Shown here: piece by piece, positions 15,501 through 30,889 of the stretch
How the letters are laid out: every line of letters starts with the position of its first letter
Numbering within the stretch: the first letter of the stretch is position 1
Assembly: GCF_007995215.1 (NCBI RefSeq)
Contig: NZ_VCDK01000005.1
Coordinates: 558,001 to 622,000 of the forward strand
Direction: 5' to 3'
Origin: Shimia ponticola
GTDB lineage: Bacteria; Pseudomonadota; Alphaproteobacteria; Rhodobacterales; Rhodobacteraceae
Length of the DNA stretch: 64,000 nucleotides
Translations under genes and position numbers: made by a program
Notes under the pieces: generated by a model
The model's database searches: none
Told to the model about the DNA's origin: nothing
Seen by the model: only the letters and a program-made list of their open reading frames with translations

Positions 15501-17273
15501 TTAGTTGGCAGAGGCCAGCTGACGTGGCAGCTTGAACGTCCAGAGGGTACCACCCTGGTTCAGGTAGTTCACCTTCTTGGCCACTTCACCACCCCAGAGC
15601 GGAACCGCGCCGCCCCAGCCCGAGATGACCGAGACATACTGTTCGCCGTCCTGTTCCCATGTCACAGGCTGACCAACGATGCCTGAACCTGTCTGGAACG
15701 ACCACAATTCTTCACCGGTGGTGTCATCCAGTGCGATGAACTTGCCCTCTGGCGTGCCAAAGAACACGAGGCCGCCAGCGGTCGTCATCACACCCGACCA
15801 CAGTGGGGCGTCGTTCTTGTACTCCCACCGGATTTCGCCGGTGTCGGGGTCCATCGCCTTCAGGCTGCCGATGTGGTCTTCGTAGTTAGGCTTGATGGTA
15901 AAGCCCGACCCCAGATAGGCTGCGCCTTTCTTGTAGGTGATCGGCTCGTTCCAGATATCCATGCCCCATTCGTTGGATGGGATGTAGAAGTTGCCGGTTT
16001 TCTGGCTGAACGCCATTGGCATCCAGTTCTTGCCGCCGAGGAACGAAGGCGATGCAAAGACGATTTCGCCTTTCTTGCCGTCTGCGGAGTCCGCCGGGTT
16101 ACCCGGGCGGTTTTCTTCTACAAAGATCGGACGCCCGTTTTCGTCGAGACCTTCGGCCCAGCTGATGTCTTTGACAAATGGAACACCACGCACAAAGTCA
16201 CCGTCTTCGGCGTTCAGAACATAGAAGAAGCCGTTGCGGTCAGCGGTTGCGAGGCGCGCGTTGCCGTCACGGTCGTTATAGGCGACGACTTCGTTCACAC
16301 CGTCATAGTCCCAGCCTTCGCGAGGCGTCGTCTGGAAGTGCCACTTGATTTCACCCGTTGCGGTGTCGAGACCCAGACGCGAAGCGGCATAGAGGTTGTC
16401 GCCCGAGTTGTCGTCCAGTGGCTGACCCGCGTTGCGCAGGTGGCTGTTCCAAGGGGCAGGGTTACCCGCGCCAAAGATCAGCGTGTCGGTGCGCGCGTCA
16501 TAGGAGCCGCCCAACCATGTTGCGCCGCCGCCGGTTTTCCACATGTCGCCGGGCCAGGTGGCATTCAGCGTGCCGGTCATGGTCGATGGTTCGCCGTTCA
16601 GCTCACCCATGTGGCCTTCGATCACGGGGCGTTTCCAGACCAGTTCACCGGTTTCCGCGTCGCGCGCTTCAACGGCGCCCACGATGCCGAATTCGCCGCC
16701 GGAGTTACCGGTGACAACGAGACCGTTCACGATCAGCGGTGCAGCGGTGTAGCTGTAGCCTGCTTTGTAGTCGTCGATCTTCTTGCGCCAGACGACGTCA
16801 CCGGTTTTCGCGTCAAGCGCGACGATGCGGGCGTCGAGCGTGCCAAAGTAAACCTTGTCGCCATAAAGCGCCGCGCCGCGGTTAATCACGTCACAGCAAG
16901 GCAGGATGCCTTCAGGCAGACGCGCGTCGTATTGCCAAAGCTCTTCACCGGTTTTGACGTCGATCGCATAAAGACGCGAATACGACCCGGTGATGTACAT
17001 GATCCCGTCATGGACAAGCGGCTGCGTTTCCTGACCGCGCTGCTTCTCACCACCCAGCGAGAACGCCCAGACCGGGAACAGGTTGTCCACGTTTTCGGTG
17101 TTGAGTGTGTCCAGCGGCGAATACCGCTGCAGGTGACGGCCCATACCGTTCGTCAGAATGTCGGATGTGCTTGCTTGGTCATTGGCCAGCATCTCTTCGG
17201 TGACACCAGCGGCTTCGACCTGCGTCGACGTCACCAAGAGAGCCGCTATGGCAGCGGTCAAAAAGCGATTCAT
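15501..17273 (-). CDS. PQQ-dependent alcohol dehydrogenase, lanthanide-type (PedH/ExaF-like)
   Basis: 590 aa from ATG 17273; the first 21 residues ([20 protein letters not shown], ending at AA) form a signal peptide, so it is periplasmic. Eight-bladed quinoprotein propeller features: the adjacent cysteine pair C126-C127 (LPCCDV), metal ligand E194 (GGEFG), N271 (GAGNPAPWN), and catalytic D322 followed by D324 in WDYDGVNE. The extra Asp two residues after the catalytic Asp marks lanthanide-dependent enzymes (XoxF, ExaF, PedH); calcium enzymes have Ala or Ser there. The [10 protein letters not shown] segment resembles PedH/ExaF rather than XoxF, so ethanol and other primary alcohols are likely substrates; methanol cannot be excluded. 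Electrons probably go to the PedF cytochrome at 24881. Confidence 0.93.
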
Positions 17274-17434
17274 ATTATCCCTCCCATTCGGGTTTGTGTG
17301 GCGGGCACGCATCCTCCTGGCGCACCGCTGCCCATGCGACATTATCGGTGTGTTCGCGGGCTCTGGGGTATGCGCCTTTGGTCTTACGACCCTGGGGGCA
17401 GTCACGCTTTAGCCTGCTCACGGCGGTGTGAGAC

Positions 17435-18120: not shown

Positions 18121-19095
18121 ATGTCCGTATTCTCAAGAATTGCGGCAGGCGTTGCCGTCGCGACATGTTTTGCCGTCAGCGCCTTTGCCGAAACGCAGAC
18201 GCTGCGCGCCCAAGTGCTGAAATTCGGCACGGTGAATTGGGAACTCAACACCATTAAGCATCATGGGTTTGACGCTGCAGAGGGGTTTGAGTTGGACGTG
18301 ACCGGTGTTGCGTCTGGCTCGGCGGCGAAGGTTGCGTTTCAAGGCGGTGAGACGGATGTGATCGTCTCGGATTGGCTTTGGGTCGCGCGCCAACGCGCGG
18401 CAGGCAAAGACTACGTGTTCATTCCGTATTCCAAAGCAGTTGGCGGCGTGGTTGTCCCATCCGATAGCCCGGCACAAAGCCTTGCTGATCTACAGGGTGG
18501 CAAGATCGGAATTGCCGGTGGCCCGCTGGATAAATCATGGCTGATCCTTCAGGCCTACGCCGATCAGGAATACGGTGTTCAACTTCAAAGCGGGACTGAA
18601 CAGGTGTTTGGCGCGCCGCCGCTGATCTTTAAGACGGCCATGCAGGGCGAGTTGGATGGGGCCATTAACTTCTGGCATTTCATGGCCAAGATGGAAGCGG
18701 GCGGAATGCGTAAGCTGGTGGATGTCGCAACTGCGGCAGAAGCGCTTGGCCTTGATCCAAACACGCCGCTTCTGGGGTATGTTGTGACCGGCGACATGGT
18801 GCGCGAAAACCCGGAACTGGTTGATGGTCTGGCCAATGCATCCCGCGCGGCGAAGGACCTTCTGGCGGCAGATGATGCCGAGTGGGATCGTCTCCGTGAA
18901 AAGATGAACGCCAAATCCGATGCGCAGTTTGAGGCGCTGAAGGCGGGTTTCCGCGCGGGTATTCCAGAGGCCGGACCAATTGATGAGGGAGCCGCGGACC
19001 GAATGCTCAAGCTGATGGCCGGGCTGGGTGGAAGCGATCTGGTTGGTGACGCGACCGCGTTGCCCGACGGCACATTCCACGCACCAAGCACCTGA
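18121..19095 (+). CDS. ABC transporter substrate-binding protein, NitT/TauT type
   Basis: 324 aa. A signal peptide is seen (VAVATCFAVSAFAETQ, cleavage near residue 24), then a type-2 periplasmic-binding fold: KFGTVNWELNTIKHHGFD, VSDWLWVARQRAAG, SLADLQGGKIGIAGGPLDKS and FKTAMQGELDGAINFWHF. These are SsuA/TauA/NrtA-family patterns. It is followed by its ATPase with a TGATG stop/start overlap; the matching permease is probably the gene at 10420. The ligand is unknown and need not be a sulfonate, since the gene is embedded in the PQQ island. Confidence 0.88.
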   Translation: MSVFSRIAAGVAVATCFAVSAFAETQTLRAQVLKFGTVNWELNTIKHHGFDAAEGFELDVTGVASGSAAKVAFQGGETDVIVSDWLWVARQRAAGKDYVFIPYSKAVGGVVVPSDSPAQSLADLQGGKIGIAGGPLDKSWLILQAYADQEYGVQLQSGTEQVFGAPPLIFKTAMQGELDGAINFWHFMAKMEAGGMRKLVDVATAAEALGLDPNTPLLGYVVTGDMVRENPELVDGLANASRAAKDLLAADDAEWDRLREKMNAKSDAQFEALKAGFRAGIPEAGPIDEGAADRMLKLMAGLGGSDLVGDATALPDGTFHAPST

Positions 19096-19736
19096 TGCTG
19101 AAGCTGGTGCATACCGATGCACCATCGGCGGCGGGCCAACGTCCGCCGCTTGTTTCATTGCGATTAGGCGGCTTTGGACAAGGTGACACACAGATCCTCG
19201 GTCAGATTGATCTGGACGTCGCGGCGGGAGAAACCGTTGCGATCACCGGCCCTTCGGGCATTGGCAAGAGCACGCTCTTGCGTCTGATTGCGGGTTTAGA
19301 GCCACTGCGCAATGGGACATGTGACCGGCCAGACCGTCGCGCGGTTGTGTTTCAGGAGCCGACGTTGCTGCCGTGGCGGCCAGTTCGCAAGAACATCACA
19401 TTGATTGCAAAGTGTTCTGACGATGCAGCCGACGCGATGCTGCACCGCGTGGGGCTTTCTGAAAAAGCTGACTTGTTTCCTGGGCAGCTTTCGCTGGGTC
19501 AGCAGAGGCGCTTGGCCCTTGCGCGGGCCTTTGCGACGCAGCCGACATTGTTGCTGATGGATGAACCGTTCGTGTCGCTCGACGCGGAATTGGCTGATGA
19601 GATGATGCGCCTGTTTGAGGCGTTGCGCGATGAGTTCAAGGTGACGACCTTGCTCGTCACCCATGCATCCGACGAGGCGCGCAGGCTGGCGACGCGGGTC
19701 GTCACTCTGGGCGGAGCGCCTGCGCGGATTGTCTAA
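19095..19736 (+). CDS. ABC transporter ATP-binding protein, NitT/TauT type
   Basis: 213 aa, short but complete. Walker A is GPSGIGKSTLL (about residues 50-60), the signature LSLGQQRRLALARA, Walker B LLLMDEPFVSLD, and the switch His lies in LLVTHASDEA. The start overlaps the binding-protein stop by one base (TGATG). It likely drives the permease at 10420. Its end overlaps the Sel1 gene on the opposite strand by 4 bases. Confidence 0.92.
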   Translation: MLKLVHTDAPSAAGQRPPLVSLRLGGFGQGDTQILGQIDLDVAAGETVAITGPSGIGKSTLLRLIAGLEPLRNGTCDRPDRRAVVFQEPTLLPWRPVRKNITLIAKCSDDAADAMLHRVGLSEKADLFPGQLSLGQQRRLALARAFATQPTLLLMDEPFVSLDAELADEMMRLFEALRDEFKVTTLLVTHASDEARRLATRVVTLGGAPARIV

Positions 19737-20392: not shown

Positions 20393-21181
20393 CTAAGCGC
20401 GTTTGCGCGTCATGCCGCGCGCCGGATCATAGCCCCAGATCGCCAGCGCCATGAAGGCGGTGGTGGCAAGCAGCGTCCAACCGAGCGCCGGGCCGTTGAA
20501 TTCGGCATAGAGCGCGAAGCGGATGAGTTCGACGGCATGAGTGAACGGGTTCGCGGCACAGATGTCGTGCAAAAGGCGTGAGCTTTCAGCCATCTTCCAC
20601 AGCGGATAAAGCGCGGAGGACAGAAAGAACATCGGGAAGATCACGAAGTTCATGACGCCTGCGAAGTTTTCTAACTGTTTGATAAAGCTGGAGAGTGCGA
20701 GGCCGAGCGCGCCGAGCATCAATCCCGCAAGGATTAGCGCGGGCAGAGCAGTCACGTAGCCCATCAGCGGCATGTCGATGCCGAAGGCGGCGGCGATGGC
20801 GAGAAAGGTGTAGACCTGCAGGATTGAGATGGTGGTCGATCCCATGAGCTTGGCAAAGAGGAGCCACCAGCGCGGCAGCGGCGCGGTCAATAAGAGCTTC
20901 ATCGACCCCATTTCGCGGTCGTAGACGAGGCTGAGCGACGACTGCATCCCGTTGAAAAGCATGATCATCCCGCAAAGGCCCGGGACGATGTAGGTCTCAT
21001 ACGTGATGTAGGTCTGATAGGGTGGCGTGATCGACAGGCCAAGCGCTGCGCGGAAGCCTGCGGCGAAGACCAAGAGCCAGACGAGGGGCCGTACAAGAGC
21101 TGCGATAAAGCGCTCGCGCTGATGGACAAAGCGCAGGGCCTCGCGCCATATGATCGCGCGGAGGGCGGGGAGCCAGATCAT
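20393..21181 (-). CDS. ABC-2 type permease of the PQQ alcohol system (PedC/LutF-like)
   Basis: 262 aa from ATG 21181, which overlaps the ATPase stop (ATGA). About six membrane helices are seen with ABC-2 features (FNGMQSSLSLVYDREMGSMK, then LLLTAPLPRWWLLFAKLMGS), and FPMFFLSSALYPLWKMAE near the C-terminus. The sequence style matches the 'alcohol ABC transporter permease' family found with PQQ dehydrogenases. In Methylorubrum extorquens the cognate genes (lutE/lutF) belong to a lanthanide-utilisation locus. It forms one unit with genes 21178-24667. Whether it moves metal, cofactor or another solute is unknown; ABC-2 folds usually export. Confidence 0.9.
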   Translation of the reverse strand: MIWLPALRAIIWREALRFVHQRERFIAALVRPLVWLLVFAAGFRAALGLSITPPYQTYITYETYIVPGLCGMIMLFNGMQSSLSLVYDREMGSMKLLLTAPLPRWWLLFAKLMGSTTISILQVYTFLAIAAAFGIDMPLMGYVTALPALILAGLMLGALGLALSSFIKQLENFAGVMNFVIFPMFFLSSALYPLWKMAESSRLLHDICAANPFTHAVELIRFALYAEFNGPALGWTLLATTAFMALAIWGYDPARGMTRKRA

Positions 21182-21948
21182 TGTTTGGCTCCTGTAAGGG
21201 TCAGGAAGTGGTCCTTGAGTGGGGTGCCTTTGGTCAGGTTCTGCACAATCCCGTATTCGATAAGCTTGCCTTGATGCAGGATCAGGCATTGATCGGTGTC
21301 GTAGATTTCGTCCGTCAGGTGCGTGGCCCAGAGGACGGTCATGCCGTCGGCGGCTAAATCATGGACATGGGCCGTGATCGCTTCGCGTGCGGCGGCGTCT
21401 AGCCCAACGGAGGGTTCATCCAAGAGCAGGACAGTCGGGTCATGCAGCAATGCGCGGGCGATCTCTGTCCGCCGGCGGTGGCCACCGTTCAGGGCGCGGA
21501 CCTTTTCGCGGGCGCGGTCGGCCATGTTCAGGCGCTCCAGTGCCTCTGCGATGCGGATGCGGGCGGTGCGGCCTGCGATGCCATGGAGCGCCGCGAAATA
21601 GGTCAGGTTTTGTTGGACGGTGAGGTCGAGGTCGAGCGTGCTTTGCTGAAACACGATGCCCAGCTTGGCCAAGGCTTGCCGGGGCGTGCGTGACAGGTCG
21701 TGCCCGGCAATCTCAATGCGGCCAGTGGGGGTCGTGAAGAGATGGGTGAGAAGCGCGAAGAGTGTGCTTTTGCCTGCGCCGTTCGGGCCCAGAAGGGCCG
21801 TGAAACCTGAGGCGATTGAGAAGGAGACGTCATCCAGCGCGACCTTCTTGCTGTAAGCGTAGGAAACCCCCTCTACGGCCAAAGTAGAGGGGGTGACACG
21901 GCGTCCAATTTGGGAGGACGAAGCTGTCTCTGGCGCCGCGTCGTCCAC
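21178..21948 (-). CDS. ABC transporter ATP-binding protein of the PQQ alcohol system (LutE-like)
   Basis: 256 aa. A GTG start at 21948 sits directly after the preceding TAA stop. Walker A is LLGPNGAGKSTLF (near residue 55), Q-loop VFQQSTLDLDLTV, Walker B VLLLDEPSVGLD, and switch His in LWATHLTDE. The ABC signature is LNGGHRRRTEIARA, with Asn and His in place of the usual Ser and Gln of LSGGQ. Its partner is the ABC-2 permease downstream (ATGA overlap). The family is the ATP-binding subunit associated with PQQ alcohol dehydrogenases. The first 20 residues are not conserved-looking, and a TTG start near LAVEGVSYAY is possible. Confidence 0.9.
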   Translation of the reverse strand: MDDAAPETASSSQIGRRVTPSTLAVEGVSYAYSKKVALDDVSFSIASGFTALLGPNGAGKSTLFALLTHLFTTPTGRIEIAGHDLSRTPRQALAKLGIVFQQSTLDLDLTVQQNLTYFAALHGIAGRTARIRIAEALERLNMADRAREKVRALNGGHRRRTEIARALLHDPTVLLLDEPSVGLDAAAREAITAHVHDLAADGMTVLWATHLTDEIYDTDQCLILHQGKLIEYGIVQNLTKGTPLKDHFLTLTGAKQ

Positions 21949-22407
21949 TTATTCAATCGTGATCTCGACGCGCTGCGTTTCACCGGTCGAACCGGGGATC
22001 TTCAGGTAGTACGAGCCGGGTTTGATCGCGAGGAAGCCAATTTCCATTTCGCCAGCTTCGTCAAATTCGACCGAGTCGATGCCGAGCGGGCGGATTTCGA
22101 GGCCTTCAACGACGATTTCATCAATCCAGATCGCGCGGAAGAATTCTGGGCCGACAAGCGCCAGTTCCTGAGAGCCGTCGCCCTGAATTTCGAACTCATA
22201 ATAGGTGCCGGACTTCAGCACCCATGGCGCGGATGTCAGCGGGATGCCGGCACCCAACTGGATCGGCTCCAGGTCCTCTTTGTTTGAGGCCGAAAGGATG
22301 CCAGCCAGGCCAAAGCCGTCATCATCATCATCGTCGTCGTCATCCGCCATCAGGGGCGTCGCGGCGAGGGCCATCATGGTGGCAACAGCAGTCAGGGTAC
22401 GGAACAT
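21949..22407 (-). CDS. exported protein with an N-terminal nine-aspartate run
   Basis: 152 aa. The signal peptide MFRTLTAVATMMALAATPLM ends in Ala just before nine consecutive Asp and then GFGLAG, so the mature N-terminus would start with Asp9 if cleaved there. The rest (about residues 50-152) is a beta-rich domain with an Ig- or cupredoxin-like look (GTYYEFEIQGDGSQELALVG and FLAIKPGSYYLKIPGSTGE) but without obvious copper ligands. It lies between the beta-propeller and ATPase genes of a lut-like operon. A poly-Asp tail is an obvious candidate for binding hard cations such as Ca2+ or lanthanides. This is inference; I know of no function for it. Confidence 0.82.
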   Translation of the reverse strand: MFRTLTAVATMMALAATPLMADDDDDDDDDGFGLAGILSASNKEDLEPIQLGAGIPLTSAPWVLKSGTYYEFEIQGDGSQELALVGPEFFRAIWIDEIVVEGLEIRPLGIDSVEFDEAGEMEIGFLAIKPGSYYLKIPGSTGETQRVEITIE

Positions 22408-22495: not shown

Positions 22496-23485
22496 TTAGC
22501 TATCTGTCGGACGGTAGGCAGCTCCCCAAGGGAAGCGCCCAACTTTGATCGACTTGATCGCCTCGCGGGCGGCGACGTCGATCACCGTAACGTCGCCGGA
22601 GACACCGTTCGTCGTGAACAGCAGCGACTTGTCGGCATTGAAATCCATGTGCCAGACGCGGCGACCAACAAGGATGTAATCCTCGACCTCATAGGTTTCG
22701 GCATTCACGACCGCGACGTGGTTCGAGGGGCCAAGCGCGACAAAGGCGTGGGTGTCACCGGCGGCGAGTTCAAATCCTACCGGCTGAACGCGGTCGGGGT
22801 GAACGCCGTCGACCTCAAAGTCGATTTTGGCGATCTCGGCTTGGGTTTCGACGTCAAAGACGCTGATTGTGCCGCCGATTTCTGCCGATACCCAAAGCTC
22901 TTTGCCGTCCTTCAGGAATTCGGCATGGCGCGGGCGCGAATCGACAAGCGTGTTGGCAAAGAGTTTCTGGGTCGTGGTGTCGATCCAGTGCGCCATGTTC
23001 GTGGTTTCAGACGTGGTGATGGCGATCTTGCCATCGGGGCTAACGGCCATGCCCTCGGGCTCAATCCCCACGTCGATTTGGGCCACAACCTTGCGTGTTT
23101 CTGTGTCCACCACAGTCGTAATCGCGTCATCCTCATTGGCGATATAGAGGTGGCGGTTGTCGGGGTGCAGGACGAACTGTTCGGGGTCCTCGCCCGACGG
23201 CAGTTCATGCAGGACCTCGCCGGTGTCTGGGTCGATGACCTGCACCGTGTCGCTGTCTGAAGCGCAGACATATAGGACCGAGTAATCCTTGGCGAAGGTG
23301 ATGCCCCGGGGGCGTTCGCCTACATCGATGGTGCGCACGACTTCGAGTGTTTCAATGTCGATCACGCTGACGGTGTCGTCCTTTTCGTTGGATACCCAGA
23401 TTTCATCGGCAGCGACCGGTGAGCCGAGCACGGCACACGCGGCCAGCGCCGCGATATGAGTATTTTTGAAACATAGAAGGGACAT
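22496..23485 (-). CDS. exported YVTN beta-propeller protein of the PQQ alcohol system (LutB-like)
   Basis: 329 aa with a signal peptide (HIAALAACAVLGSPVAADE). At least six repeats of about 42 residues follow: VSNEKDDTVSVIDIETLEVV, LYVCASDSDTVQVIDPDTGE, LYIANEDDAITTVVDTETRK, LWVSAEIGGTISVFDVETQ and so on. This is the 'PQQ-dependent catabolism-associated beta-propeller' type. It probably binds a protein or ligand in the periplasm; no catalytic residues can be claimed. It is part of the minus-strand unit 24667-20393. Confidence 0.9.
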   Translation of the reverse strand: MSLLCFKNTHIAALAACAVLGSPVAADEIWVSNEKDDTVSVIDIETLEVVRTIDVGERPRGITFAKDYSVLYVCASDSDTVQVIDPDTGEVLHELPSGEDPEQFVLHPDNRHLYIANEDDAITTVVDTETRKVVAQIDVGIEPEGMAVSPDGKIAITTSETTNMAHWIDTTTQKLFANTLVDSRPRHAEFLKDGKELWVSAEIGGTISVFDVETQAEIAKIDFEVDGVHPDRVQPVGFELAAGDTHAFVALGPSNHVAVVNAETYEVEDYILVGRRVWHMDFNADKSLLFTTNGVSGDVTVIDVAAREAIKSIKVGRFPWGAAYRPTDS

Positions 23486-23509: not shown

Positions 23510-24667
23510 TCAGTTAAAGGCGGTGCAGTTGGATTCCGGGCGATCGATGCCCAGCGTGTCGAGTTCCGTGGTCTGGTGAAGGAACCCTTCGAGCGGGGCG
23601 TTGGCGACCAGCGCGCGGGGGTGCAACAGCGGGATCGGCTGGCGCAGCTGTCCGTTCCAATCGCGGAAGGTCAGCGGACGGCCTTTGAATCCGGCGAGTT
23701 CGAAGTCAGGACCGAGGATGTAATCGCGCAGGGTTGCGACGTCGTTGGACTGTGTGCGTGTGACGGCCTCGCCCAAGACGCGCACGGCGGCCCATGCGGC
23801 GTAGTCTTTGGGAGCCATCTCGCGCTCATGAGCGTCCTCAAATCGGGATTGCAGTTGCGCGGCGCCCCATTGCTCGACGGCGGGGCCCCATGTCTGGGCG
23901 CTGAGGCCTTCGGAACCGACGACGGGGCGGGCCTCCCACGTGTTATAGAGGATGTAGCGGCCGAAATCGTTGAACTCATCGGCGACGATCAGGGCGTCAT
24001 AGTCGCCGAAATCCTGGGTAAAGAGCGGGACCTCTTGGGCGGCGTTGCGGCGCATGTCGGCGTCAAAGCGCCATTCCTTGCGGTCAGACAGCTTCATCCC
24101 GAACTTGGTCAGCGAGCCTTCCATCGCGGCGGCATAAGCCTGATCTTCGGGATGACCACCCGCGATCATTACCAGATCATCCCAACGTTTGGTGGTAAAG
24201 AACTGGGCCAGTGCGTCTGTGCGCATGGACGTCGAGGGCAGCGTGTGCAGCATGTTGGCGCGGCAGTCTGCGTCACGCAGCACGGCGTCGCCGGCACCAG
24301 AGTTAAAGAGCAGCGCATTCGCTGCCTCTGGCATATCAGCGATTGTCAAAAGAACATCTGCAGGGGCGTCGATCACCAGATAGGGGCTTTCGGCCAGCGC
24401 TGCTCGCGCCGCCTCGGCCGCGTCATCGCCCAGCCAGACATTGTGCTCGGACAGCTCCCAGGTCTGACCCATGAAGCGGCCAGTGGTAGCATTGTCGTCG
24501 ATGGCAGTCATGACCCCGGCAAGCCCCAAATCCTCGGGGATCGGGTCGAGGTTCGATAGTGTCGGCGGCAGGTCGCGTTCGACCTTCAGCCACCCGATCG
24601 TCACATCCTGAGCGTCCGCTGCCACAGCCCAACCGGCTGTCAGCAGCGCCAACATTGCAGTGCGCAT
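23510..24667 (-). CDS. ABC transporter substrate-binding protein of the PQQ alcohol system (LutA-like)
   Basis: 385 aa from ATG 24667 (MRTAMLALLTAGWAVAADAQ signal peptide). The in-frame extension to 24790 covers the promoter region and is rejected. A type-1 periplasmic binding fold is seen: VTIGWLKVERDLPPTLSN, LVIDAPADVLLTIADMPEA, LVMIAGGHPEDQAYAAAMEG and YDALIVADEFNDFGRYILY. It resembles branched-chain-amino-acid-type receptors found with PQQ alcohol dehydrogenases. It is the first gene of the unit receptor, propeller, Asp9 protein, ATPase, permease. That gene set resembles the lutA-F locus of M. extorquens, which is required for lanthanide-dependent growth. The ligand is not predictable. 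Confidence 0.88.
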   Translation of the reverse strand: MRTAMLALLTAGWAVAADAQDVTIGWLKVERDLPPTLSNLDPIPEDLGLAGVMTAIDDNATTGRFMGQTWELSEHNVWLGDDAAEAARAALAESPYLVIDAPADVLLTIADMPEAANALLFNSGAGDAVLRDADCRANMLHTLPSTSMRTDALAQFFTTKRWDDLVMIAGGHPEDQAYAAAMEGSLTKFGMKLSDRKEWRFDADMRRNAAQEVPLFTQDFGDYDALIVADEFNDFGRYILYNTWEARPVVGSEGLSAQTWGPAVEQWGAAQLQSRFEDAHEREMAPKDYAAWAAVRVLGEAVTRTQSNDVATLRDYILGPDFELAGFKGRPLTFRDWNGQLRQPIPLLHPRALVANAPLEGFLHQTTELDTLGIDRPESNCTAFN

Positions 24668-24717
24668 TGGCACGTCCTCCCTTGGCCTCAGGGAAGAGGA
24701 GTCAAGCGTGTTAAGGA

Positions 24718-24731
24718 ACCAAGACCTTGGT
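24718..24731. promoter_or_regulatory. palindrome in the receptor/PedF divergent promoter
   Basis: ACCAAG-AC-CTTGGT, a perfect inverted repeat. With flanks it reads CAAGACCTTGGTCGG, which matches CAAGACCTTAGTCGC on the minus strand at 10385-10369 in 13 of 15 positions. Confidence 0.5.
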
Positions 24732-24760
24732 CGGAGGCGGCCTAGGGTGGTTGCCAAAGA

Positions 24761-24772
24761 GCGACTAAGGTC
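24761..24772. promoter_or_regulatory. candidate regulon operator in the receptor/PedF divergent promoter
   Basis: GCGACTAAGGTC, identical to the site at 10369-10380. A third related CCAAGGTCC lies near 24807. Three copies in 213 bases suggest cooperative binding between the two divergent units. Confidence 0.5.
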
Positions 24773-24880
24773 GGGTGCTTCTTGGTGCAAAAATCAAAGG
24801 GACCCCACCAAGGTCCAATACCTGAATGCAGGTGCGCCTGCGTAATCATTGGGGAACGATGACATTGGGAGGAGTCGGAG

Positions 24881-25579
24881 ATGACCCTGCGCACATGGGC
24901 GGCGGGAGCCGCAGTAATTGGCCTGACCACACTGGCGGCCACGCACGCAACCGGACACGGCGATGTTGCGCCGCAGCCGGTGGATACCGCTGCGCTGCCT
25001 GATGTCGAAGATGGCCTGATCGAAAATCCCTACCGTGCCGACGCCGTTGGCGAAGACGTCTGGTTGGCTGCGCTTGAGATTGGGGCGTCGGGCTACAACC
25101 AGAACTGCGCACGCTGTCACGGGTTGGAAGCGGTGTCTGGTGGTCTGGCCCCTGACCTGCGGTTCCTTGAGGCCGAGGAATATGGCGACGAATGGTATAT
25201 GGAGCGCTTTATCCACGGCTATACCCAGTCGGGCATCACGCGCATGCCGGGTTTTGGCGAGTTGCTGGGCGAAAAGGCTGGCTGGGCAATCCGCACCTAT
25301 ATCGAAACACGTCCCGACGATGTCGCTATGGAGGACGTGAATGACGATTTGGTCGCCATTCGCGATAAGCTTGCCATGTGGGCCGATGATGCGAGTGGCG
25401 CTGATGTGGACGGCGTGATTGCCGAATTGGGCACGATCTCGGCCAAGATTGAAACCCTGTCAGGGGCACCGGTTGCTGACTCGGTTGCCTTCCGGGCGGA
25501 GCGTATTCTGACGGTGGATCCGGCGGCCTTCAGAACCGCAGCTGAAACGCTGACGGTTGGGCTGTCGGCGGCGCAATAA
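24881..25579 (+). CDS. pedF: cytochrome c-550, PedF-like electron acceptor
   Basis: 232 aa. A signal sequence is seen (RTWAAGAAVIGLTTLAATHA). A single haem c site CARCH lies at residues 76-80, and a likely axial Met in GITRMPGFGELLG (near residue 123). The C-terminal 100 residues are an alpha-helical extension beyond a simple class I cytochrome domain. PedF-type cytochromes accept electrons from PQQ alcohol dehydrogenases in the periplasm, and the dehydrogenase at 15501 lies in the same island. A TAATG overlap couples it to the XoxJ-like gene downstream. Confidence 0.9.
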   Translation: MTLRTWAAGAAVIGLTTLAATHATGHGDVAPQPVDTAALPDVEDGLIENPYRADAVGEDVWLAALEIGASGYNQNCARCHGLEAVSGGLAPDLRFLEAEEYGDEWYMERFIHGYTQSGITRMPGFGELLGEKAGWAIRTYIETRPDDVAMEDVNDDLVAIRDKLAMWADDASGADVDGVIAELGTISAKIETLSGAPVADSVAFRAERILTVDPAAFRTAAETLTVGLSAAQ

Positions 25580-26475
25580 TGCTGAGAACGCTGGCGGCGG
25601 CATTGCTGGCATTTGGGATGGCTGGACCGGTTTGGTCCAGCTCGGACCCCTGCGCCGATTATGTCCCGCAGCCCAAACCCCAGAACGCGTCGCGTGACAT
25701 TGTCGGGCAAGAGCTGGACCAGATCATGGATCAGGGTCACATGCTTTTCGCCGTCTACGAAGACTACCCGCCCTATTCGTGGAAAGAAGGTGGCGAGCCG
25801 ATGGGCATCGACATCGAGGTCGCGCGGATCATCGCGGAAGACCTTGGCGTTGACGCGCGGTTCAACTTTGTGGCGGCGGGCGAGACGCTTGAGGCCGATC
25901 TGCGGTTCAACATCTGGAAAGGTGCGCTGATCGGGGGGCGGATTGCCAATGTGATGATGCGGGTGCCTTGGGACCCCAGCTTTGCGTGTCGGGTCGAGCA
26001 GGTCGTGTTCACTGGCCAGTATTCCGCCGAGGCGATCGCGATTGCTTATGACAAGGCGAGCTACCCGGAGGAGAAGCCCGTTCCGGCCTATTTCCGGTTT
26101 GATACCGTCGCGGTCGAGAATGACAGCATCGCCGATTTCTATCTGTCGTCCTTTGCAGGTGGGCAGATGGCCAGCAACATCAAACGCTACACCACCATGG
26201 AAGAAGCGATGGCGGCCTTGGCTGCCGGGGATGTCATGGCGGCCATGGGGCCACGTGGTCAGTTAGATCACGGGTTGACGGATAGCATCGGAGTGCACGA
26301 ACCTCCGCTGGCCGGGTTCGCCGTTTCGAACTGGACGCTCGGCGTTGGAGTGAATTTCCGCTACCGCCCGTTGTCCTACGCAGTGGACGATGCCGTGCGG
26401 TACGCATTGGAGGATGGGCGCATTGCGGCCATTCACGAGAAATACGGCGTCACGTTCCGTGCGCCTGAAAGGTAG
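25579..26475 (+). CDS. quinoprotein-associated periplasmic binding protein (XoxJ/MoxJ-like)
   Basis: 298 aa with a signal peptide (MLRTLAAALLAFGMAGPVWS). A type-2 binding fold is seen: LFAVYEDYPPYSWKEGGEPM, GIDIEVARIIAEDLGVDA, IANVMMRVPWDP and FRYRPLSYAVDDAVRYALED. The CADYVPQPKPQNAS N-terminus is typical of the MoxJ/XoxJ group. No matching permease or ATPase is adjacent. Family members are thought to help activate the dehydrogenase, for example by binding the apo-enzyme, rather than to transport. Translation is coupled to PedF. Confidence 0.9.
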   Translation: MLRTLAAALLAFGMAGPVWSSSDPCADYVPQPKPQNASRDIVGQELDQIMDQGHMLFAVYEDYPPYSWKEGGEPMGIDIEVARIIAEDLGVDARFNFVAAGETLEADLRFNIWKGALIGGRIANVMMRVPWDPSFACRVEQVVFTGQYSAEAIAIAYDKASYPEEKPVPAYFRFDTVAVENDSIADFYLSSFAGGQMASNIKRYTTMEEAMAALAAGDVMAAMGPRGQLDHGLTDSIGVHEPPLAGFAVSNWTLGVGVNFRYRPLSYAVDDAVRYALEDGRIAAIHEKYGVTFRAPER

Positions 26476-26481
26476 AAGACG

Positions 26482-27018
26482 ATGAAACTGACCGGATCAC
26501 GGGTAATCAACGCGCCGCAAGAGGTCGTTTGGGCAGGCATTCTGGATGCAGAAGTGCTGAAGGCCTGCGTGCCCGGCTGTACCGAGATGTCCGGCAACCC
26601 CGATGACGGGTTCGAGGCGACCGTTGTGCAAAAGGTCGGCCCGGTGAAAGCCACCTTCAAAGGTGCCGTCACGCTGGAAGACATGAACGCACCAAATAGC
26701 GTCAAGCTGGTTGGCGAAGGCAAAGGCGGCGCGGCAGGTTTTGCCAAGGGCGGTGCTGACGTGACCTTGACGGCGGTCGATGGCGGCACACAACTTGATT
26801 ACGAAGTGGATGCCCGGGTTGGCGGAAAGCTGGCGCAACTTGGTAGCCGCATCATTGACGGGTTCGCCAAGAAGATGGCGGACCAATTCTTTGAACGCTT
26901 TCAGGAGGCCGTCGAAGAGCCTTCGGAGGCGGACATGGAGCTTGCTGACGGAGACGCGGCGGGCGCTGACGAAACCAAGAAGAAATCATGGCTGGGCCGG
27001 ATCACCGGAAAAGCCTGA
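26482..27018 (+). CDS. coxG: CoxG-family protein (SRPBCC fold)
   Basis: 178 aa. CoxG-like features run from the start: [49 protein letters not shown], and [20 protein letters not shown]. The C-terminal 35 residues are acidic then basic ([15 protein letters not shown]). CoxG is associated with molybdenum hydroxylase (CO dehydrogenase type) gene sets; in Oligotropha it is reported to help anchor the enzyme at the membrane. It lies 6 bases after the XoxJ-like gene and 40 bases before coxS, bridging the PQQ and Cox modules. Confidence 0.9.
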
Positions 27019-27058
27019 CATACCAACAAGGCACATAGAAAGATTCAGGGAGGATCTG

Positions 27059-27544
27059 ATGGCAAAAATTTCAATGACGGTGAACGGTAAGGCCGTTTCC
27101 GGCGAGGTTGAGGGACGCACGTTGTTGTCCGCGTTCCTGCGCGATGATCAAGGCCTTACAGGGACGCATATCGGCTGTGACACCAGCCAATGCGGTGCCT
27201 GCAACGTCCACGTCAACGGTGTGAACGTGAAAAGCTGCACTATGCTTGCTGCCGAAGCGGATGGTGCCGAGGTCACGACGATCGAAGGCATGTCCAACGC
27301 GGACGGGTCGCTATCTGTGGTTCAGCAAGCGTTCCAGGATTATCACGGCCTGCAGTGCGGTTTCTGCACACCCGGTATGGTGATGACGGCGGCAGCGCTC
27401 TTGAAGGAGAACCCGAAGCCGACCGAGGCCGAGGTTCGCGCCTACCTGGAAGGCAATATCTGCCGCTGCACGGGTTACCATAACATCGTCAAAGCGATCA
27501 TGGCCGCGTCCGGGCAGGACGTGATGCCGGTTGCCGCTGAATAA
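27059..27544 (+). CDS. coxS: molybdenum hydroxylase small subunit, [2Fe-2S] (CoxS type)
   Basis: 161 aa from ATG 27059, preceded by AGGGAGG. The N-terminal plant-type [2Fe-2S] domain has cysteines in [16 protein letters not shown] and KSCTML; the C-terminal [2Fe-2S] domain has CGFCTPGM and CRCTGY. It carries electrons from the Mo site to the FAD subunit. It belongs with the large subunit at 27634 and the medium subunit at 30098. Confidence 0.95.
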
Positions 27545-27558
27545 AGAACGACAAGACG

Positions 27559-27615
27559 GTGCGTGAGACCACGCACTCGACCCACCAATCGTAGGGTGTG
27601 TGCTTTGCACGCACC
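27559..27615 (+). other. two hairpins between coxS and coxL
   Basis: GTGCGTG-AGAC-CACGCAC (27559-27576) and GGTGTGTGC-TTT-GCACGCACC (27595-27615). The second ends 19 bases before coxL. They could mark an mRNA processing or stability element, or a small intergenic repeat; no T-tract follows, so they are not typical terminators. Confidence 0.5.
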
Positions 27616-27633
27616 ACGCCTAGGGAGGAATAA

Positions 27634-29997
27634 ATGCCAAAGGATAGTGGTATTGGCGCGAGCAATAAGCGCCGCGAAGACATCCGGTTTCTGACAGGGA
27701 CCGGCAATTACACAGACGACATCAACCTGAACGGTCAGGCCTATGCGCATATCGTGCGCTCGGACATGGCGCATGGCACGATCAACAGCATCGACGTCAG
27801 CGCCGCCGAGGCGATTGATGGCGTGGTTAAGGTGTTCACAGCCGCCGATTTCGAAGGCGTCGGTGGCATTCCGTGCGGTTGGCAGGTGACCGACCGTCAC
27901 GGCCAGCCCATGCAGGAACCCAAGCACCCGATCTTGGCGGAAGGCAAAGTCCGTCACGTCGGTGACCCGATCTGTGTGATCGTGGCCGAAACCGCTGAGC
28001 TCGCGCGTGATGCAGCGGATGCATTGAACATCGACATCACCGAACTGCCAGCGGTGATCGACATGAAAGACGCCCTGGCCGATGGCGCGACCAAGGTTCA
28101 CGACGATCTGACCAACAACCTCTGCTACGATTGGGGCTTTGGGTCAGAAGATCTGGATGCCGTGCAAAATGCGTTCGACACGGCGCATCATGTCACCACG
28201 CTTGAACTGAAGAACAACCGTCTGGTGGCCAACCCGATGGAGCCACGTGTGGCCGTCGGCGACTATGCCCGGCACAGTGACGAGTCGACGCTCTACACCA
28301 CGTCGCAAAACCCGCATGTGATCCGCCTGTTGATGGGTGCCTTCGTTCTGGGCATCCCAGAGCACAAGCTGCGCGTTGTGGCCCCGGATGTGGGCGGCGG
28401 CTTTGGCGCCAAGATTTACCACTACGCCGAAGAAGCCATCGTGACCTTTGCCGCCAAGGCGCTGGGCCGTCCGGTGAAATGGACATCCAGCCGCTCGGAA
28501 GCGTTCGTGTCTGATGCGCATGGCCGTGACCACGTGACCAAGATCGAACTGGCGATGGATAAGGAAGGTAAATTCCTTGCTGTCCGGACCGACACCCACG
28601 CAAACATGGGTGCGTACCTGTCGACCTTTGCACCGTCGATCCCGACATGGCTGCACGGCACGCTGATGGCGGGCAACTACACCACGCCGCTGATCCATGT
28701 GAACGTGAAGGCTGTCTTTACGAACACGACGCCGGTTGACGCGTATCGTGGTGCAGGTCGCCCAGAGGCGACGTTCCAGCTTGAGCGAGTGATCGACAAG
28801 GCCGCGCGTGAAATGGGGATGGATCCGGTTGAAATCCGCCGCAAGAACTTCATCACCGAGTTCCCCTATGCGACGCCTGTGGCGGTGGAATATGACACCG
28901 GCGACTACCACGCGACGATGGATGCTTTGCTGGCCAAGTCGGACCACGCAGGATTCGAGGCGCGTGCGGCTCAGTCCAAGGCCAACGGCAAGCTGCGCGG
29001 CTTTGGCATCGCACATTACATCGAGGCTTGCGGCATCGCGCCGTCTGCTCTTGTGGGCCAATTGGGTGCGCGTGCGGGTCTGTATGAATCAGCCACGGTG
29101 CGTGTGAACGCGACCGGTGGTCTGGTCGTCATGACCGGTTCGCACAGCCACGGTCAGGGTCACGAAACCTCGTTTGCGCAAGTCGTGGCCGAGATGATCG
29201 GCATCGACGAAAGCATGGTCGAGATCGTGCATGGCGACACCGCCAACACGCCGATGGGCATGGGTACCTATGGCTCCCGCTCGCTGGCTGTGGGTGGATC
29301 GGCCTTGGTCCGCGCGACCGAGAAGATCATCAACAAAGCCAAAAAAGTGGCTGCACACCTGATGGAAGCCGCAGAGGGCGACATCGAGTTGAAAGATGGT
29401 CAGTTCACGGTTGCAGGCACTGACAAATCGGTCGCCTGGGGTGACGTGACGCTGGCCGCCTATGTGCCGCACAACTATCCGCTGGAAGAAATCGAACCCG
29501 GTCTTGAAGAAACGGCGTTCTATGATCCGGCGAACTTTACTTATCCATCGGGTGCCTATGGCTGTGAGGTCGAGGTTGATCCTGAGACCGGCAAAGTCAC
29601 CGTCCTTGGCTTCACCGCTGCTGATGACTTTGGCAACGTGGTCAACCCGATGATCGTGGAAGGTCAGGTTCATGGTGGTCTGGCCCAGGGTATCGGTCAG
29701 GCTCTGTTGGAAAACTGTGCCTATGACGAAAACGGCCAGCTGATCAGTGCATCCTACATGGATTACGCGATGCCGCGTGCGGATGACCTGCCGAACTTTA
29801 CGGTCGATCATTCGTCGGTCACACCCTGCACGCACAACCCGCTGGGTGTGAAAGGCTGTGGTGAGGCTGGTGCGATCGGATCGCCACCTGCGCTGGTCAA
29901 TGCCGTGATCGACGCGCTTCAGCGCGGCGGCCATGACGTGGCTCATATCGACATGCCTTTGACGCCAGGTCGCGTCTGGGCGGCGATGAACGGCTAA
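27634..29997 (+). CDS. molybdenum hydroxylase large subunit, form II CoxL-like
   Basis: 787 aa with the xanthine-oxidase/CoxL fold: [20 protein letters not shown] at the start, [17 protein letters not shown], and [19 protein letters not shown] near the C-terminus. The active-site loop is AYRGAGR at residues 370-376. True form I CO dehydrogenase has AYxCSFR there, so this is a form II enzyme, whose substrate is generally unknown and often an aldehyde or heterocycle. Set in an alcohol-oxidation island, an aldehyde oxidoreductase that follows the alcohol dehydrogenase is a reasonable guess. It binds Mo-molybdopterin cytosine dinucleotide by family knowledge. No maturation genes (coxD/E/F) are in the window. 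Confidence 0.93.
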
Positions 29998-30013
29998 TCG
30001 ACTGTGATCAGGA

Positions 30014-30032
30014 CCGGGGGCTTTGCCCCCGG
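30014..30032 (+). terminator. strong hairpin between coxL and coxM
   Basis: CCGGGGGC-TTT-GCCCCCGG, a perfect 8-bp stem, followed 13 bases later by GTTTTTTC. It resembles a recurring intergenic element of Rhodobacteraceae. It may attenuate transcription into coxM or simply be a repeat; coxM has its own ribosome site. Confidence 0.5.
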
Positions 30033-30097
30033 ACCCCCAAAGTTTTTTCGGCAAGAAGATGGGTGGAGGCCCGTATGAGCCGAGGGAGGAAGACAAC

Positions 30098-30889
30098 ATG
30101 TATAACTTCGAATTCTCGAAACCTTCGACGGTCGCAGATGCAGTTGCCGCATTGGCATCGGAAGATGCGCAGGCACTGGGTGGCGGACAGACGTTGTTGC
30201 CGACAATGAAGCAACGTCTGGCGCAGCCTGAGACTCTGGTCAGTTTGACCGGGATTGATGAGCTGAAAGGCGTTTGTCAGGGCGACAACGGCGCGGTTGT
30301 GGTAGGCGGGGCAACGACCCATGCGACCGTCGCAGCCGATGCGGCGGCGCTTTATCCGGCTCTGGCGGCTTTGGCATCGCATATCGGGGACCCGCAGGTG
30401 CGCAACCGCGGCACGATTGGCGGTTCGCTGGCAAACAATGACCCCGCGGCCTGCTATCCGGCGGCAGCGTTGGGATCGGGCGCGACGATCACCACGAACA
30501 AGCGTGACATCGCAGCGGATGACTATTTCCAAGGCATGTTCACAACGGCACTGGAAGAAGGTGAAATCATCACCAGTGTGTCATTCCCGGTGCCAGAAGC
30601 GGCGAACTATCAGAAGTTCGTGCAGCCTGCGTCGCGCTTTGCGATGGTTGGAATCTTTGTCGCAAAATACAGCGACGGGGTCCGTGTTGCCGTGACCGGC
30701 GCGTCCGAGGACGGGGTTTATCGCTGGTCCGAAGCTGAGGCGGCACTTTCGTCCAACTTCTCAGCGTCGGCGCTTTCTGATCTATCGGTATCGTCGGACG
30801 GTATGATCACCGACCTGCACGCCACTGCCGCCTATCGCGCGCATCTGGTAAAGGTCATGACAGGCCGCGCTGTCGCTGCCGCTTCCTAA
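30098..30889 (+). CDS. coxM: molybdenum hydroxylase FAD-binding subunit (CoxM type)
   Basis: 263 aa from ATG 30098 behind GAGGGAGGA; an upstream ATG at 30023 would run through the hairpin and is rejected. FAD-binding motifs of the CoxM family are seen: ALGGGQTLLPTMKQRL (near residue 32), VGGATTHATV, and RNRGTIGGSLANNDPAACYP (around 105-125). It transfers electrons from the Fe-S subunit to an acceptor, possibly quinone or cytochrome. The gene order S-L-M differs from the M-S-L order of classical CO dehydrogenase operons. Confidence 0.93.
   Translation: MYNFEFSKPSTVADAVAALASEDAQALGGGQTLLPTMKQRLAQPETLVSLTGIDELKGVCQGDNGAVVVGGATTHATVAADAAALYPALAALASHIGDPQVRNRGTIGGSLANNDPAACYPAAALGSGATITTNKRDIAADDYFQGMFTTALEEGEIITSVSFPVPEAANYQKFVQPASRFAMVGIFVAKYSDGVRVAVTGASEDGVYRWSEAEAALSSNFSASALSDLSVSSDGMITDLHATAAYRAHLVKVMTGRAVAAAS

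Follow-up and report, generated by a model that had tools for sequence, protein, structure and literature searches.

A LutC-family secreted protein with a variable poly-aspartate leader in a predicted lanthanide import operon of Shimia ponticola

In the 64,000-nucleotide stretch of Shimia ponticola DNA analysed here (the window), one gene encodes a small secreted protein with nine consecutive aspartates (22407..21949, minus strand; 152 aa, supported by its ORF, its homologues, an AF2 model of the core and a fold search). This Asp9 protein probably (at roughly 70%) belongs to the LutC family and serves as a periplasmic accessory to lanthanide import; its core would act, and the Asp tail would be an optional leader. 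LutC represents an unexplained part of bacterial lanthanide import: the family is known by name, not by function, and the tail is lineage-specific. A predicted copper-free cupredoxin that occurs widely in the lut clusters of Alphaproteobacteria, rhizobia among them, offers a concrete structural hypothesis with four residues to mutate, and the conspicuous Asp run should not be taken for the metal site.

The operon and its neighbourhood

The genes of an ABC system were found on the minus strand in the order substrate-binding protein, propeller, Asp9 gene, ATPase and permease, and the four ABC/propeller genes all scored above curated cut-offs: the ABC substrate-binding protein of PedA1/LutA type (23510..24790; TIGR03863, 476.6 bits, cut-off 413.6), the PQQ-associated beta-propeller of PedA2/LutB type (22496..23485; TIGR03866, 522.4 bits, cut-off 287.3), the ABC ATPase of PedB/LutE type (21178..21948; TIGR03864, 335.9 bits, cut-off 302.25), whose GTG start directly follows the Asp9 stop codon, and the ABC permease of PedC/LutF type (20393..21289; TIGR03861, 448.3 bits, cut-off 241.35). 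The only PQQ-dependent alcohol dehydrogenase of the genome above the TIGR03075 cut-off is encoded on the same strand at 15501..17405 and carries a WDYD motif. WDxD was common to all 58 related dehydrogenases examined in homologous loci, and D-x-D serves as the diagnostic motif for lanthanide-using enzymes (PMC11996626). On the plus strand lie the gene for cytochrome c-550 PedF (24881..25579; TIGR04494, 168.5 bits, cut-off 122) and, in an XoxJ/PedG-like position, that for a family 3 solute-binding protein (25579..26475; PF00497), a conserved neighbour. The initial annotation, made from the sequence alone, had placed the Asp9 gene between the propeller and ATPase genes of an ABC system accompanied by a lanthanide-type dehydrogenase, and both statements are borne out by the TIGR03866 and TIGR03864 matches and by the WDYD motif of the TIGR03075 enzyme.

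PedA1A2BC of Pseudomonas putida is required for lanthanide-dependent growth at low lanthanide (PMC6839425), and LutA, LutB, LutE and LutF of Methylorubrum extorquens are the counterparts of these four components (PMC7391723). Lanthanide-dependent growth likewise requires the lut genes, and loss of lutC in M. extorquens causes a small defect (PMC7391723). Judged by its family assignments, the operon described here is a lanthanide ABC system of the PedA1A2BC/Lut type. In P. putida, too, these four ABC/propeller components are found near a PQQ dehydrogenase of lanthanide type, but there is no LutC-type gene between pedA2 and pedB.

Two further features of the neighbourhood were recorded. At 18121-19736, an NMT1-type substrate-binding protein gene adjoins an ABC ATPase gene with no permease beside them; the same pair has a permease in between in S. 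meliloti and is likewise without one in Phaeobacter. The lut/ped cluster is flanked at 26482-30889 by genes for a molybdenum hydroxylase (xanthine/CO dehydrogenase type), a linkage also seen on a Phaeobacter plasmid, and this enzyme possibly oxidises the aldehyde product.

Identity and distribution of the LutC homologues

The Asp9 protein found no family in Pfam, NCBIfam or PDB sequence searches, and its identity was approached through a ten-gene lut locus (L209) from a genome whose LanM shares 99% identity with the M. extorquens protein. The genes of this locus are arranged as substrate-binding protein, propeller, Asp9-protein homologue, small protein, ATPase, permease, solute-binding protein, TonB receptor, LanM and small protein, the TonB and solute-binding labels having been read from the sequence by eye. 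Its third gene product is 48% identical to the Asp9 protein over 71 aa (E 2e-19, direct comparison) and was also matched by profile (E 5e-23 in a small set). The third position, between propeller and ATPase, is that of LutC in the published lut order (PMC7391723), and it was from this order that the names LutC and LutD were assigned in L209. On the combined grounds of synteny and sequence, the Asp9 protein is taken to be a LutC homologue. An identity as LutD, the lanthanide-binding protein, was considered and rejected: a small gene of its own, next after that of the LutC homologue, encodes LutD in the M. extorquens-type locus.

M. extorquens LutC shares with the Asp9 protein its place between the propeller and ATPase genes, a homologous core and the same predicted cupredoxin fold without copper ligands, but the M. 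extorquens-type protein of L209 has no Asp run. That type of locus also has a LutD gene ahead of the ATPase gene, with LutH and LanM genes close by; neither LutH nor LanM had a match in the S. ponticola genome. Like the Asp9 protein, the lanthanide-binding periplasmic proteins LutD, lanmodulin and lanpepsy are small exported proteins of lanthanide metabolism. Unlike lanmodulin and lanpepsy, the Asp9 protein has no EF-hand or PepSY match, and Pfam and NCBIfam searches found no EF-hand motifs in it. Lanpepsy, a PepSY protein of Methylobacillus, binds lanthanides. In a lut-type cluster of Sagittula stellata, a gene for a small PepSY-domain protein (L218, 1863-2126) directly follows the LutC homologue.

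Of the 80 nearest homologues, 77 had the propeller gene next upstream; the remaining three cases were two contig ends and one misordered ORF list. A family profile retrieved relatives across the Alphaproteobacteria, most of them in lut-type clusters, where they lie between propeller and ATPase or elsewhere, for example after the permease. Class-wide, a PedC/LutF permease was present in 23 of the 26 genomes with a LutC-type match, versus 57 of 385 genomes overall (P 1.8e-18). Conversely, the profile search of these 385 genomes did not detect LutC in 34 of the 57 that bear LutF, which argues that LutC is accessory. One LutC-family homologue (L164, 4816-5259) stood alone in a 12.5 kb stretch free of lut genes, and a LutF-type permease is located on another contig of that genome.

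Predicted fold and putative working surface

In the AF2 model (built from 14 sequences), most of the core has a pLDDT above 90 and the Asp run falls below 50. Foldseek searches against the PDB returned copper nitrite reductases, multicopper oxidases, SufI and the cupredoxin AcoP, with E-values of about 1e-6 to 1e-5; the model of the L209 LutC retrieved the same families, both models giving a cupredoxin fold at E ~1e-6. Two distant relatives outside lut clusters, L010 and L148, keep the His...Cys...His...Met set, and L148 matches Pfam Cupredoxin_1. When the lut-associated family was aligned with these two, the His, Cys and second His ligands were found to be absent throughout, the Asp9 protein included. 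The core (about residues 35-152; 21952..22305, minus strand, delimited on a deep alignment) is accordingly modelled as a predicted copper-free cupredoxin-like domain, preceded by a predicted disordered acidic leader. It would share the common fold of AcoP, the nitrite reductase domains and Cupredoxin_1, but it lacks their copper ligands and has conserved carboxylates instead: in the deep alignment, positions E81, E104, E114 and D116 are 83-93% acidic across distant lut-associated homologues.

The Asp9 protein is then probably a periplasmic accessory to a lanthanide importer of the LutA-B-E-F / PedA1A2BC type, with the copper-free cupredoxin-like domain as its putative working part. This core would probably bind or present the metal, free or as a chelate, or else a partner, for example the propeller or the binding protein, and contact could be made through a candidate carboxylate patch formed by E81, E104, E114 and D116. 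The role in import is suggested by the operon together with the mild phenotype of M. extorquens lutC; that mildness also speaks against more than an accessory function at best. We infer the contact partners and the binding of metal by the core, and hypothesise the metal step. The Asp leader, with a length that drifts quickly between 0 and 9, would be dispensable for the conserved role and might at most tune export, solubility or local cation concentration.

Variation of the Asp run

The ORF translation reads MFRTLTAVATMMALAATPLMA (signal peptide), DDDDDDDDD, and then GFGLAGILS and the rest of the protein, so that the signal peptide followed by Asp9 described in the initial annotation is indeed present in the 152-aa ORF. 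The nine codons (residues 22-30; 22344..22318, minus strand) were located in the sequence and by a pattern scan and coincide with pLDDT values below 50 at residues 22-31. They read GAT GAC GAC GAC GAT GAT GAT GAT GAC. Cleavage is predicted after A21, in which case Asp9 would begin the mature protein; an AxA-type cleavage site is found in most homologues. A scan of the whole 3.78 Mb genome located at least seven consecutive Asp codons at two places, this gene and C6:969.5-970.3 kb, which argues that Asp9 is not a chance product of composition.

In total, 88 homologues were read, of which 80 were genome-contig loci with a core after the run that is ~81-97% identical, and the run could be parsed in 87 sequences, one of them from the window. 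Ahead of the core, the longest stretch of Asp measured 0 in 6 sequences, 1 in 13, 2 in 8, 3 in 14, 4 in 12, 5 in 13, 6 in 11, 7 in 7, 8 in 2 and 9 in 1; at least four consecutive Asp were present in 45 of the 80 genome-contig homologues. Homologues without a run, which read AEGGFG (L029), AEGFG (L054, L084 and L056) or ADGFG (L063 and L076) instead, have a core identity of 85-91% (91% for L029). All six have the operon complete from binding protein to permease, and run-less members keep the WDxD dehydrogenase where the sequence covers it. Mapped on a core tree, presence and absence of the run require at least 14 changes under two-state coding and 21 under three-state coding, counts that are rough, since the tree (118 columns, 3 of 81 inner branches starred) is weakly resolved. 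Conservation of the acidic run along with the operon and the enzyme, as a chaperone role of the tail would demand, was not observed: runs measure 0-9, and several homologues in the same operon lack one. It is the cupredoxin-like core that is strongly conserved, and the tract is best described as a lineage-specific, fast-evolving decoration, absent from some close relatives with the same operon.

Elsewhere, short acidic tracts at the mature N-terminus were also observed in another clade, in Phyllobacterium (D6, D5) and Rhizobium homologues, and acidic mature N-termini recur in homologues from Rhizobiaceae/Phyllobacteriaceae; none was found in the S. meliloti, Gemmobacter and Sagittula homologues examined. 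In the same loci as the Asp9 gene and its relatives, no other cluster gene among those compared (binding proteins, propeller, cytochrome, dehydrogenase, ATPases) has an Asp run longer than 4, and for nearly all of them the maximum is 2 or 3. Since, within these loci, such a tract is peculiar to this gene, and since it recurs in another clade, the run is not noise. In the run-less homologues of Sinorhizobium (L186, 5911-6354) and Sagittula (L218, 1411-1851), a cysteine pair (APLC...C) occurs near the mature N-terminus, at the place where other homologues have Asp.

Alternative explanations

The initial annotation found the idea of a periplasmic lanthanide or calcium chaperone attractive; in such a model the Asp9 tail itself would collect hard cations and pass them to the importer or the dehydrogenase. 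The operon context agrees with this, as do the restriction of the tract to this gene and its recurrence in Rhizobiaceae and Phyllobacteriaceae. Nevertheless, we consider it improbable: the length of the run is not conserved, and close homologues with the same operon and a WDxD dehydrogenase have none. The annotation had itself named run-less homologues in the same context as evidence against the idea, and with relatives of 85-91% core identity and the same gene order lacking the run, the poly-Asp stretch can hardly be upheld as a functional metal-chaperone element. In addition, seawater contains a competing calcium-type cofactor at ~10^-2 M versus lanthanides at ~10^-11 M (PMC11996626), concentrations at which a plain Asp run would be expected to carry Ca/Mg. 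An electron-transferring copper cupredoxin serving the dehydrogenase would fit the fold and an operon that adjoins both a PQQ dehydrogenase and the cytochrome PedF; this reading was given hardly any weight and is rejected on the missing His, Cys and second His ligands, a dedicated cytochrome being present as well.

Within the LutC reading, a codon repeat in the disordered leader could have expanded almost neutrally to give the tract, and the result would be tolerated since Sec export is well served by acidic residues just past the signal peptidase site; we hold this view tentatively and rate it as rather less than an even chance. The free drift in length between near relatives and the low pLDDT of the tract speak for it, as does a slight excess of identical neighbouring codons (103 of 209 adjacent Asp pairs versus 93.5 +/- 6.1 in shuffles; P = 0.066). 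The mixture of GAT and GAC had been read as an argument against slippage, but with identical neighbours slightly, not significantly, in excess and run length changing freely between near relatives, that argument loses its force. Other exported proteins of the same operons have no such runs, however, and pure neutrality poorly explains the recurrence in another clade. This recurrent acidity points to some selection in its favour; the acidic leader possibly confers a mild selective advantage, and the Asp tract may have an auxiliary cation-related role. More speculative, and in our estimate doubtful, is the combination of an ex-copper cupredoxin turned handler of lanthanides or their chelates, with its site at E81/E104/E114/D116, and an acidic antenna of adjustable length, added independently in several lineages, that would collect hard cations. 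Among the papers searched, none linked LutC with cupredoxins and none dealt with poly-Asp periplasmic lanthanide binders.

At C6:969.5-970.3 kb, the other place in this genome with a long Asp run, the genes for two small exported proteins stand in tandem, and each protein has a very long C-terminal tail rich in Asp. The first of these appears PepSY-like at its N-terminus when read by eye, and the second gave a weak PepSY_2 hint in Pfam.
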